Shown: positions 20,146-24,054 of the stretch, piece after piece
How positions within the stretch are numbered: the first letter of the stretch is position 1
Layout of the letters: every line of letters starts with the position of its first letter
NCBI GenBank assembly: GCA_013287605.1
Contig: JABDDM010000009.1
Location: forward strand, 1-59,368
DNA length: 59,368 nucleotides
Origin: Ignavibacteria bacterium
Lineage (GTDB): Bacteria > Bacteroidota > Ignavibacteria > Palsa-1295
Direction: 5' to 3'
Position numbers and translations under genes: made by a program
Notes under the pieces: generated by a model
Told to the model about the DNA's origin: nothing
The model's database searches: none
What the model saw: only the letters and a program-made list of their open reading frames with translations

Positions 20146-20616
20146 ATGACGACTCGAAGAGAGTTTATCACGGGCTGTGGTAAAGTAATCACAGGAGTTG
20201 CCGTCTCGGGACTTCTCCTGCCTGTACTCCAGGGTTGCGTGCCGACGTCGCTTCCGCTTACGCCTTTGCCGCCATCTCCTCCGGTAGGGCCGGATGGTAG
20301 AGTGATTGTCGATATCTCGGATCTCAATTCAGGCAATCCGATCAAAGTGGTGCCCGGCCTCTATGGCAGCGATGGTTTACCAATCCTGATCACAAGAATT
20401 TCTGACACAGATTTCCGGGCGCTTTCGAGTTACTGCCCGCATGCCGGATGTCAGGTGGAGAATTCACTGCAAGGCACCTCGATCCCGTGCCTTTGCCACA
20501 ATTCTCTTTTTGCGCTTGATGGCAATGTCGTGCAAGGTCCGGCAGTAACATCACTCAAAAAGTACGATGCGACGTTCGAGGCATCATCTCACACGCTGCA
20601 TATTAAAGTTGCTTAA
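20146..20616 (+). CDS. Tat-exported Rieske [2Fe-2S] lipoprotein
   Basis: 156 residues. The N-terminus has a twin-arginine motif (TTRREFI, residues 2-8), a hydrophobic stretch and a lipobox VLQGC with Cys31, so the protein should be exported folded and lipidated. A Pro-rich linker (LTPLPPSPPVGP) leads to the Rieske fold. The cluster ligands are Cys97 and His99 in YCPHAGC, and Cys115 and His118 in IPCLCHNS; Cys102 and Cys117 are placed for the stabilising disulfide. It resembles the small Rieske subunits of quinol-oxidising complexes or arsenite-oxidase-like systems, but no cytochrome b or molybdopterin gene is adjacent. Its stop overlaps the cytochrome-porin start (TAATG), so electron exchange with that protein is a reasonable inference. 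Confidence 0.93.
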   Translation: MTTRREFITGCGKVITGVAVSGLLLPVLQGCVPTSLPLTPLPPSPPVGPDGRVIVDISDLNSGNPIKVVPGLYGSDGLPILITRISDTDFRALSSYCPHAGCQVENSLQGTSIPCLCHNSLFALDGNVVQGPAVTSLKKYDATFEASSHTLHIKVA

Positions 20617-21830
20617 TGAGATATTTACGAACGAAGACGACTTCGAAATCAGTGTGCTGGATCGGATCGATTTTCGTGATCGCAGCAGCCTCGTGCGTAT
20701 TGGTTGATACATGCCGTGCAATTCCTCGGTTCTCACTCATGACCGGCACTCGATGCTCTGTGTGTCACTTCAATCCACAGGGAAGCGGTTTGCGAACGGA
20801 GCTCGGCTGGTCCGCTATGAACGAGACGGGTCTTTTCAAATGGCGAAATTCGGCTAATGATACTGTTGCTCCAACGAACGAATTGTTCAACGGTCTCTTC
20901 GTACCAGGGCTCGATGCAAGACTCCAGCTCGTAAGAGTTTCAAAGACCGGCCAGCGATTGCTCATTCCGATGCAGCTCTCGACGTCACTCGCCTTCGTGC
21001 CGAGCAAGCAGTTCGTGGCCTACACTAATATTAATCTGGCAAGTATCGAAGAACGCATTCGCGGTGGTTCGCTCTATCCGGGTGAAGCCGATTTTGACGC
21101 GCAGATCCAGTATCAGCCCGACATATCGCTGCCGTCGATCAGACTTGGTATGATCGAGCCGAGCATCGGGATTCGTCAGGATGATCATACAGTTTTCGTG
21201 CGGCGTGAGGCTGCCCTCAAAGACGTTTATCTTTTTCCGGCCTATTACAATGATGTTGGCGCGGAGATTACGTATGAAGGCTTAAAGTATCTGACGGTCA
21301 ATGCCGGTATTTTCAATGCCCATAATTTATCGCAAGTCGATCCAACCATCGGGACGGTCACCTCGAATTTTGATTTTAAGAAACCAACTGTCTCGGGACG
21401 AGTGATGCTTTGGCCGCAACTGCTGGAGCAGCAAATCAACGGGGAGGCCGGGGCTTCGATCATGGTCAATGGTGCATTCCAGATGATCAATGTGTTCGCT
21501 GGCTTCGGGCTATCAGATAAAGCAACGATCGCTGTGGAAGCTCTGCATGCGACGAATGCCGTTGATCGTATTGTAAGAAATTTTACTGTGATGGGCAGCT
21601 TGCGTCTCGCCGATTGGCTGGCTGCGGATTGGCGATATGATTGGGGGCAAACGGAAATGTTTCCTGGAAAAGCGCTGGCCTATGCCGAAGCGTTCACATT
21701 TGGATTTGAGTTCTTCGTCTTCCCCTACATCGAACTCAGGCCCGAATACCGATTGATGCAGACCAATCCATTTTACGGGCAGACTGTCTCCTCAGGACAA
21801 TACACAGGTCAGATCCATGTATTCTACTAA
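20616..21830 (+). CDS. Outer-membrane monoheme cytochrome fused to beta-barrel (Cyc2-like layout)
   Basis: 404 residues. A signal peptide is followed at once by IPRFSLMTGTRCSVCHFNPQG, which carries one c-type heme site (Cys47, Cys50, His51) immediately after the cleavage region. Residues about 90-404 are beta-barrel-like: alternating aromatic strands, many short turns, and a terminal Tyr (GQIHVFY). A single N-terminal heme plugged to a barrel of about 300-350 residues is the layout of Cyc2-type cytochrome-porins, which move electrons across the outer membrane, for example from Fe(II). The barrel could instead be a separate porin family with a heme. Upstream coupling is by TAATG to the Rieske gene; the next gene overlaps its end by 14 nt. 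Confidence 0.85.
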   Translation: MRYLRTKTTSKSVCWIGSIFVIAAASCVLVDTCRAIPRFSLMTGTRCSVCHFNPQGSGLRTELGWSAMNETGLFKWRNSANDTVAPTNELFNGLFVPGLDARLQLVRVSKTGQRLLIPMQLSTSLAFVPSKQFVAYTNINLASIEERIRGGSLYPGEADFDAQIQYQPDISLPSIRLGMIEPSIGIRQDDHTVFVRREAALKDVYLFPAYYNDVGAEITYEGLKYLTVNAGIFNAHNLSQVDPTIGTVTSNFDFKKPTVSGRVMLWPQLLEQQINGEAGASIMVNGAFQMINVFAGFGLSDKATIAVEALHATNAVDRIVRNFTVMGSLRLADWLAADWRYDWGQTEMFPGKALAYAEAFTFGFEFFVFPYIELRPEYRLMQTNPFYGQTVSSGQYTGQIHVFY

Positions 21831-23073
21831 TTCAAAGACTCGTTTCAGAAGAGCTTTAACCTGGCGAATGCTCATCACGATGGGCTTCGTTCTGTTCGTC
21901 CTACGCGAAGCGGGATGTGACTATAACATCACGACAAATCCAGACAAGAGTCTTGTGGTCGTCAGCGTTTCTCCACAGGCAGTCACACTCACTCCGAGTG
22001 GGGAGATCACTCTTACAGCAGCAGTTACACATTTTCAACATGACAGCACACTCACGTGGTCCCTATCGGATCCAAACATCGGACAACTGTCGTCGAACGG
22101 CGGAACGGCAGTCTACAAAGCGCCCGCATCAGTGCCTGGGACGGCGATGAGCGTTTCGGTGCTAGTGCAGTCTGTTGAAGATCCAACGAAAACAGCTCAA
22201 GCAGTTATCACAATCGTCAATCCCGATACGAGTGGCACTACTGGTGTAAAAGTGCTCTTGAGCCCGCTCGCCATTACACTCAGCCCAGGAAAGTCGCAGC
22301 AATTTCATGCGACGGTTCTCGGCTTAACTACAACTACGGTTACGTGGCAGCTTGTGAGTGGATTTGGGACGATCACTGCTGACGGTACTTATTCCGCTCC
22401 AGGGTCACCAGCTTCACTACCAACCTTTGGCATTATTCGAGCGAGTTCAACGGCCGATCCCACCAGATATGCTGATGCTACGATCACAATCATGAATTCT
22501 GCCGACTCGCTCGTCTGTTTCGAACGCGACATTCTTCCAGTTCTGACAGGAAGTTGCGGAATGAGCGGCTGTCATACGCCAGGAGCTGGTCCGGGAGATC
22601 TTACATCCTATGACGGAATACTAAGTCGCGTGGTGTCAGGCAGCGCTCGGTCAAGTCGGCTATATCTTGCGATCACCAATTTCGACATCGCACGGAGGAT
22701 GCCTCCGCCACCGCGTTCGATACTTTCACCAGTACAGATCATTGCGATTGGTCGCTGGATTGATCAGGGAGCACTGAAGACTTCATGCTCGGCTGGATCG
22801 CAATGCGATACCACCTCGGTTCATTATTCGGACTTTGTTCGCACTACGATGGCTACCTACTGCATAGGGTGTCATACTGGCGCAACGGCAGGCGGAGGAA
22901 TTGACCTCTCAAGTTACGGCGGGTTGGCAAAAGTGACTGCGAATGGAAGACTTATGGGTTCGATCACGTTCAGTCAAGGGTTTTCTGCCATGCCCAAACT
23001 GGGACCTCGGCTCGATGATTGTACCATAGCTAAGATCCAGGCTTGGGTGAATAGAGGATACCCCAATGACTGA
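21817..23073 (+). CDS. Diheme c-type cytochrome lipoprotein with Ig-like repeats
   Basis: 418 residues. A hydrophobic signal ends in a lipobox-like REAGC with Cys34. Two bacterial Ig-like (BIG_2-type) repeats cover about residues 45-228 (VSPQAVTLTPSGEITLTAAV and LSPLAITLSPGKSQQFHATV). The C-terminal part has two heme-binding sites: FERDILPVLTGSCGMSGCH with an unusual C-x4-C-H spacing (Cys247, Cys252, His253), and a standard CIGCH (Cys349, Cys352, His353). This layout resembles the PSCyt1/planctomycete-type cytochrome domain. Its start lies within the end of the cytochrome-porin gene, so the proteins are probably made together. A surface or periplasmic electron-relay role is inferred. Confidence 0.87.
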   Translation: MYSTNSKTRFRRALTWRMLITMGFVLFVLREAGCDYNITTNPDKSLVVVSVSPQAVTLTPSGEITLTAAVTHFQHDSTLTWSLSDPNIGQLSSNGGTAVYKAPASVPGTAMSVSVLVQSVEDPTKTAQAVITIVNPDTSGTTGVKVLLSPLAITLSPGKSQQFHATVLGLTTTTVTWQLVSGFGTITADGTYSAPGSPASLPTFGIIRASSTADPTRYADATITIMNSADSLVCFERDILPVLTGSCGMSGCHTPGAGPGDLTSYDGILSRVVSGSARSSRLYLAITNFDIARRMPPPPRSILSPVQIIAIGRWIDQGALKTSCSAGSQCDTTSVHYSDFVRTTMATYCIGCHTGATAGGGIDLSSYGGLAKVTANGRLMGSITFSQGFSAMPKLGPRLDDCTIAKIQAWVNRGYPND

Positions 23074-23141: not shown

Positions 23142-23777
23142 ATGAAAAAATATTTCCTAATCATCGCTCTCGTGTTGTTGTCTAGCGTCGGCATCAGTCG
23201 AGCCCAGCTTTCTGTAAGCTCAGGCCCGAAAGTGGCTACGATCAATGACAAGATCAATCAAAATCAATTCGTGTGGTTAAGCAAAGCGCCGTTGGAGAAT
23301 ATCCAGGGCACGTCGGAGGGAGTAAAGGGAACTATCACTATTGATCCCAAAGACCTTTCCAAACTCACTGGCACGATCAGCACTGATGTTGCATCCATGA
23401 AGACTGGTAACGGTCCACGTGATAGTCATCTTGTTGGCCCACAGTGGCTGGACGCAAACAAGTATCCGCAGATCACATTCAAAATCGCTTCGGTCACAAA
23501 TGTGAAAGTTGAAGGAAATGCGGCGACAGGATATGCGACCGGGACGTTCACAATGCACGGCGTGAGCAAATCTCTCCTTATTCCATTCAGCCTGCGCTAT
23601 GTACCTGAAAGCGAGAAGACGCGGCTGCGCGCACCAGGCGATCTTGTAATGTTCGCGGCCGACTTTGACATCGCGCTTAAGGACTTCAACGTCGCTGGTA
23701 CCGACGGCGTAGTAGGAAGCAAAGTGGGGGAGACGATCCATATCAAAGCACAACTGTTTGCTAATACTGCTTCATGA
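23142..23777 (+). CDS. YceI-family periplasmic lipid-binding protein
   Basis: 211 residues with signal peptide to SRAQLS (about residue 22). The mature part is a YceI lipocalin-like barrel: FVWLSKAPLENIQGTSEGVKGTITID, then TGNGPRDSHLVGPQWLDANKYPQITFK and the late GTFTMHGVSKSLLIPFSLR. YceI proteins bind polyisoprenoid chains in the periplasm; some link to cytochrome b561 or quinone chemistry, which fits this redox neighbourhood, but that link is inference. The gene starts 68 bp after the diheme lipoprotein, so it may have its own promoter. It is followed after 4 nt by a small membrane protein gene. Confidence 0.93.
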   Translation: MKKYFLIIALVLLSSVGISRAQLSVSSGPKVATINDKINQNQFVWLSKAPLENIQGTSEGVKGTITIDPKDLSKLTGTISTDVASMKTGNGPRDSHLVGPQWLDANKYPQITFKIASVTNVKVEGNAATGYATGTFTMHGVSKSLLIPFSLRYVPESEKTRLRAPGDLVMFAADFDIALKDFNVAGTDGVVGSKVGETIHIKAQLFANTAS

Positions 23778-23781
23778 GCTA

Positions 23782-24054
23782 ATGAGAAATAGGGGAGTCG
23801 CATTGATCTTATTCGGAACGGCAGCGGGACTCTTAGTGTGGTGGCTTGTGGCCGGCGCGCATGTTTTTACGATGACGTCACGACTCGTCCAGGTCAAGGA
23901 CGAGCTCTTTGGAACAACCGTAGATCATTGGGAAAAAGCATTTATTCCGGGACTGGAAGTTGTCGGACCCACGATGCTCATCCTCATCAGTGTAGGTGTA
24001 TGGCTTCTATACAGAGATCGAAAAAGAAAGACCGTTTCAACTATTCAAGCTTGA
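23782..24054 (+). CDS. Small two-helix membrane protein
   Basis: 90 residues from the ATG at 23782 (MRNRGVALILFG), chosen because it starts 4 nt after the YceI stop; the track start lies inside the YceI gene. Two transmembrane helices are predicted: VALILFGTAAGLLVWWLVAG and GPTMLILISVGVWLLY. A polar stretch (VQVKDELFGTTVDHWEKAFIPG) between them would lie outside the cytoplasm, and a basic tail (RDRKRK) inside. No family is recognised. It is the last gene before a strong terminator, so it belongs to the YceI transcript. Confidence 0.72.
   Translation: MRNRGVALILFGTAAGLLVWWLVAGAHVFTMTSRLVQVKDELFGTTVDHWEKAFIPGLEVVGPTMLILISVGVWLLYRDRKRKTVSTIQA

Follow-up and report, generated by a model that had tools for sequence, protein, structure and literature searches.

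Five genes on the forward strand of the DNA analysed here, a 59,368-nucleotide contig from an Ignavibacteria bacterium (hereafter the window; contig C9 of a 2.2-Mb assembly that is 68% complete), probably encode a conduit that carries electrons across the outer membrane and whose monohaem porin is of another type than Cyc2. We put the probability of this reading at about 0.6. A c-type haem bound near the N-terminus of the porin by Cys47, Cys50 and His51 would lie at or inside the periplasmic opening of a barrel with 16 strands, and its sixth ligand would perhaps be His191, on a loop that in classic porins folds into the lumen, or Met119. On the periplasmic side, a Rieske lipoprotein would exchange electrons with the porin haem. 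On the outer side, a haem lipoprotein would carry the path on to the cell surface. A YceI lipocalin and an LFGT membrane protein would probably couple this path to quinone or a similar lipid-soluble carrier. If the flow ran inwards, electron uptake to oxygen would be feasible because two haem-copper oxidases are encoded in the genome, with Fe(II) as one candidate substrate among several.

To our knowledge, nearly all that is known of fused cytochrome-porins comes from Cyc2, whose presence in a genome is taken as a marker of iron oxidation. Since a separate family, spread through the class, shares this architecture but has its own signature and its own partners, the combination of a haem and a porin does not by itself mean Cyc2. 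The unit also provides a defined gene set for studying electron exchange with the surroundings in the widespread, little-cultured Kapabacteria- and Ignavibacteria-like bacteria, and the invariant Met119 and His191 allow a direct test by point mutation. No description of a set of Rieske, YceI and monohaem-porin genes was found in the literature searched, mostly papers accessible without subscription.

Gene layout and partner proteins

The unit begins with the gene for a Rieske [2Fe-2S] lipoprotein (20146..20616), followed by those for the 404-residue monohaem outer-membrane porin (20616..21830) and for a lipoprotein with two Ig-like repeats and C-terminal cytochrome domains (21817..23073). The first two genes are joined by TAATG and the second and third overlap by 14 nt, which confirms the coordinates and joints of the three-gene cluster originally described. 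The unit is larger than that description, since a gene for a YceI-family lipocalin (23142..23777) and one for a small LFGT protein with two predicted membrane helices (23782..24054) come after the lipoprotein gene on the same strand and are also members of the conserved module. A scan for promoters and terminators at the window locus returned signals at chance level. A LigB-type extradiol dioxygenase gene (PF02900; 19184-19975) lies on the same strand 170 nt upstream of the module and, as far as was seen, is outside the conserved unit.

The first protein matches PF00355 (E 7e-12) and carries a Tat motif (TTRREF) and a lipobox (LQGC, with Cys31 as the lipobox cysteine), in keeping with its original description as a Tat-type Rieske lipoprotein. 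Box I reads CPHAGC (20434..20451) and box II reads CLCHNSLF (20488..20511), the latter with the Ser kept and the Tyr replaced by Phe. They have, respectively, the CXHXXC and CXCH form of Rieske proteins of the bc, b6f and arsenite-oxidase type. The two disulfide cysteines of high-potential Rieske proteins, common to those of bc1, b6f and arsenite oxidase, are kept in the window protein. No cytochrome b is encoded within the window, and the cytochrome b genes (PF00033) of this genome are found on contigs C29 and C51 only. A role as a subunit of a cytochrome bc complex was ruled out on the ground that no cytochrome b is encoded nearby.

The third protein gave matches to PSCyt1 and Cytochrome_CBB3. 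It contains a CX4CH haem-site candidate, CGMSGCH (22555..22575), found in all 16 homologues, and a CxxCH haem site, CIGCH (22861..22875), kept in 10 of these and missing in the other six. The original prediction had made this a surface diheme lipoprotein with Ig repeats. The two haem sites held up; the Ig-like repeats gave weak Pfam matches (E 0.008-0.09), and the protein is placed at the surface only provisionally because its lipobox, REAGC, is loose.

The fourth protein matches PF04264, the isoprenoid- and quinone-binding YceI family, well above the gathering score (E 2e-26; 93.4 bits against 23.7). Because other YceI proteins carried ubiquinone-8 or other isoprenoids when purified (PMC9113575), the YceI gene suggests a link between the module and a lipid carrier. 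The fifth protein, which carries the motif [DE][PE]LFGT, likely starts at the ATG at 23782, and the listed open reading frame starts at the TTG at 23758. No Pfam family reached its cut-off with this protein, DUF2627 (PF11118) remaining below its gathering score (21.1 bits against 22.4).

The porin: haem motif and predicted fold

A signal peptide in the porin is followed by a single CxxCH motif, CSVCH, at residues 47-51 (20754..20768). Comparison of the porin sequence with Pfam, NCBIfam and the PDB gave no match. In 87 of 87 porin homologues, Cys47, Cys50, His51, Met119 (20970..20972) and His191 were invariant. His191 is part of an RQDDHT motif (residues 187-192; 21174..21191) within the long loop that joins strands 5 and 6. 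In classic porins, the loop between these strands folds into the lumen. Because of their invariance, His191 and Met119 are candidates for the sixth (distal) haem ligand, and Met119 may instead be a residue of the lumen.

An AlphaFold2 model built without haem from 87 sequences reached a mean pLDDT of 87.1 and a pTM of 0.84, and superseded a first model from 18 sequences (pLDDT 69). In the model, residues 95 to 403 contain 16 strands. The N-terminal haem segment is ordered, with a pLDDT of about 91 over residues 41-70. The best PDB matches in Foldseek were 16-strand porins, namely OmpT and OmpU from Vibrio, PorB, Omp32, OprP and OprO. Long loops connect strands 3-4, 5-6 and 7-8, with short turns on the opposite side, a pattern that appears to fit a porin whose N-terminus is periplasmic. 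The haem may be positioned in the barrel lumen. The original prediction of a single CxxCH after the signal peptide, followed by a barrel, would have been contradicted by a structure with no transmembrane barrel or by homologues that all lack the motif; a 16-strand barrel is predicted and CxxCH is kept in 90 of 90 porin loci examined.

Distribution of the family and its neighbours

A porin of about 60% identity was found in all seven genomes of a neighbouring genus, with the Rieske and lipoprotein genes adjoining in the order Rieske-porin-lipoprotein or Rieske-lipoprotein-porin. When relatives were searched for the same grouping, as originally proposed, the three genes were together in 10 of the 10 same-family loci examined at length (window included), which is far more than chance. 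The window's 2.2-Mb genome encodes six Rieske genes, so that one would lie within 5 kb by chance in a few percent of cases. Searches with porin-family profiles covered the window's own phylum, and the contig scan beyond covered close relatives only. A profile of 18 sequences detected the family in 209 of 294 genomes of the class, and a profile of 87 sequences in 78 of 98, a few of these matches being weak and partial. Outside the class, 8 of 298 genomes of the phylum matched the profile of 87, all weakly and partially. As judged from these profiles, the window porin belongs to a separate family that is common in the class and, within the phylum searched, nearly confined to it at full length.

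A maximum-likelihood tree of the 90 loci separates a clade of 67, which includes the window, from a clade of 23 (split support 100/100). Rieske genes within 5 kb and on the same strand as the porin were counted at 55 of the 67 loci, a lower bound in that some Rieske-free loci end at contig edges. LFGT genes were present at 39, lipoprotein-type cytochrome matches at 34 and YceI genes at 27 of the 67. All 55 Rieske-adjacent porins belong to the larger clade, and none of the 23 loci of the sister clade has a Rieske, YceI or LFGT gene beside the porin. The pairing of a Rieske protein with a monohaem porin, part of a combination originally thought unfamiliar, is common in the class. The barrels of the sister clade share full-length homology with the window porin (hhalign 100%), as well as the CxxCH and an RxDDHT motif, but differ from it in that CxxCH is usually followed by NPTGGG and in their lack of these neighbours. 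Two such NPTGGG-type monohaem paralogues are encoded in the window's own genome (C4:635-1924 and C7:55540-56865), neither with a Rieske partner.

In one family of the class (loci L080, L132-L135 and L137-L139), a lipoprotein with 5-6 haems adjoins the monohaem porin and replaces the haem lipoprotein. The one tested, from L080, carries an MtrC/MtrF domain, which occurs in established extracellular electron transfer proteins. Small monohaem proteins also adjoin the porin in this family, and L138 and L139 have 13-haem and 6-haem cytochromes as well. The 5-6 haem lipoprotein is a likeness to systems of the MtrCAB type, and the window module resembles MtrCAB, MtoAB and PioAB in combining a barrel with redox partners on either side. 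However, in those systems a decahaem protein lies inside a 26-strand barrel, whereas in the window porin the haem motif is fused to a predicted 16-strand barrel and the candidate periplasmic partner is a Rieske protein. We tentatively suggest, at less than even odds, that the module represents a second type of haem-plugged conduit, not Cyc2 and widespread in this one class, in which the Rieske protein and a quinone-carrying YceI would join the inner-membrane quinone pool to an outer-membrane haem without cytochrome b.

Relation to Cyc2 and competing explanations

The published criteria for Cyc2 (Keffer et al., PMC8406198) are a CXXCH motif, an upstream AXPXFAR[Q/K][T/Y], a downstream PXL, a minimum length and a 16-strand porin. 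The window porin has a single CXXCH after its signal peptide, exceeds the minimum of 365 residues and is modelled as a 16-strand outer-membrane porin, with OprP, OprO and PorB among its PDB matches. The upstream signature is absent, with AIPRFSLMT in the window and sequences of the AIPRFSLLT or ALPQFSLLT types in its clade, although AXPXF is kept and Thr occupies its position in the Cyc2 motif. The PXL four residues after CXXCH is likewise absent from the window porin (CSVCHFNPQGSGL) and its clade. When the Cyc2 motif was searched as DNA in 396 genomes of the phylum, it was found in many genomes of the window's class and in a family with ATPVFARQTGMSCTACH proteins, which is evidently Chlorobiaceae because of these proteins.

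Profile comparisons were made between the window clade and the Cyc2-motif proteins. At full length, the clade matched Cyc2-motif proteins with an E of 2e-12, and the comparison with the FARKY-type set gave 97.7%. The barrels alone gave 94.9% (E 4e-8) against the FARKY-type set and no match against the Chlorobi-type Cyc2 set. One haem-free Porin_O_P protein, used as a control, scored nearly equally against the same barrel profile (92%, E 6e-7), which is why similarity of the barrels was not accepted as proving homology to Cyc2. The N-terminal segment reached 93% against known Cyc2 over 19 columns. Shared ancestry of the window porin and Cyc2 is therefore a possibility.

As a true Cyc2, the porin would take electrons from dissolved Fe(II) on the cell surface, and these would reach a terminal oxidase by way of the Rieske protein. 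The shared layout of signal peptide, N-terminal CxxCH, AXPXF start and predicted 16-strand porin of about 400 residues, the full-length profile match and the two haem-copper oxidases are consistent with this. However, both published motifs are missing, the barrel is not clearly closer to Cyc2 than a haem-free porin is, and the Cyc2-motif sets have no invariant residues that correspond to Met119 and the His191 of RxDDHT. The frequent Rieske, LFGT and YceI neighbours also set the window porin apart, and a separate protein with all the Cyc2 motifs is encoded on contig C29 of the same genome. Assignment of the porin to Cyc2 was rejected on the missing motifs and the control, and we consider an iron-oxidising Cyc2 quite unlikely here. 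The original prediction of an outer-membrane conduit with its own redox partners thus stands as to the barrel with a haem motif and the partners, which occur together in Kapabacteria-like genomes, but its Cyc2 call and iron as the possible substrate are not supported.

The family is so abundant in the class that it may have some general function in the envelope, which counts against the conduit, as do the lipoproteins that lack the second haem and the many porins without YceI nearby. One such function would be defence against lipid peroxidation, in which YceI would carry a reduced isoprenoid quinone as an antioxidant, and the Rieske protein and porin haem would recycle it or pass on the electrons of radicals. 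A precedent is the YceI protein BcnA with the cytochrome b561 LcoA, for which an antioxidant role via reduced isoprenoid quinone was proposed (PMC9113575); like that pair, the window module links a YceI lipocalin to electron-transfer genes. Its wide presence in the class and the membership of YceI and a small membrane protein agree with such a role. However, the partners of the window YceI are the Rieske protein, the porin and the two-helix LFGT protein, and none of the genes seen in the module resembles b561. In addition, YceI is near only 27 of the 67 porins and missing by many Rieske-linked ones, and the haem lipoproteins and multihaem partners speak for an outward connection. We regard this explanation as unlikely. 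Least probable of all is a solute porin of the usual kind, in which the haem is structural or a redox gate and plugs or regulates the channel. The generic porin fold and the sister clade without Rieske partners would suit it, but Rieske and other haem proteins often co-occur with the porin in the window's clade, and CxxCH is fully conserved along with two candidate axial ligands. The conduit distinct from Cyc2 is therefore the reading that we prefer.

Rieske genes also lie near Cyc2-motif proteins in Chlorobiaceae-like genomes, so a Rieske and Cyc2-like pairing as such is not unique, and in the window's own family they occur near Cyc2-motif proteins as bc complexes. The C29 locus (L181:4549-11598) encodes two YceI proteins, a haem-free barrel, the Cyc2-motif protein (ALPNFARKY...CSSCH...PRL, 468 aa), a Rieske protein and a fusion of cytochrome b with a c-type domain. 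This arrangement is repeated at L182 (genome G007, contig C19), where two Cyc2-motif proteins flank a Rieske protein and a cytochrome b/c fusion, together with several small cytochromes. At L186 and L191 (genomes G380 and G359, of the same phylum but outside the class), a FARKY-type Cyc2-motif protein is followed by a Rieske protein and an 8-haem protein.
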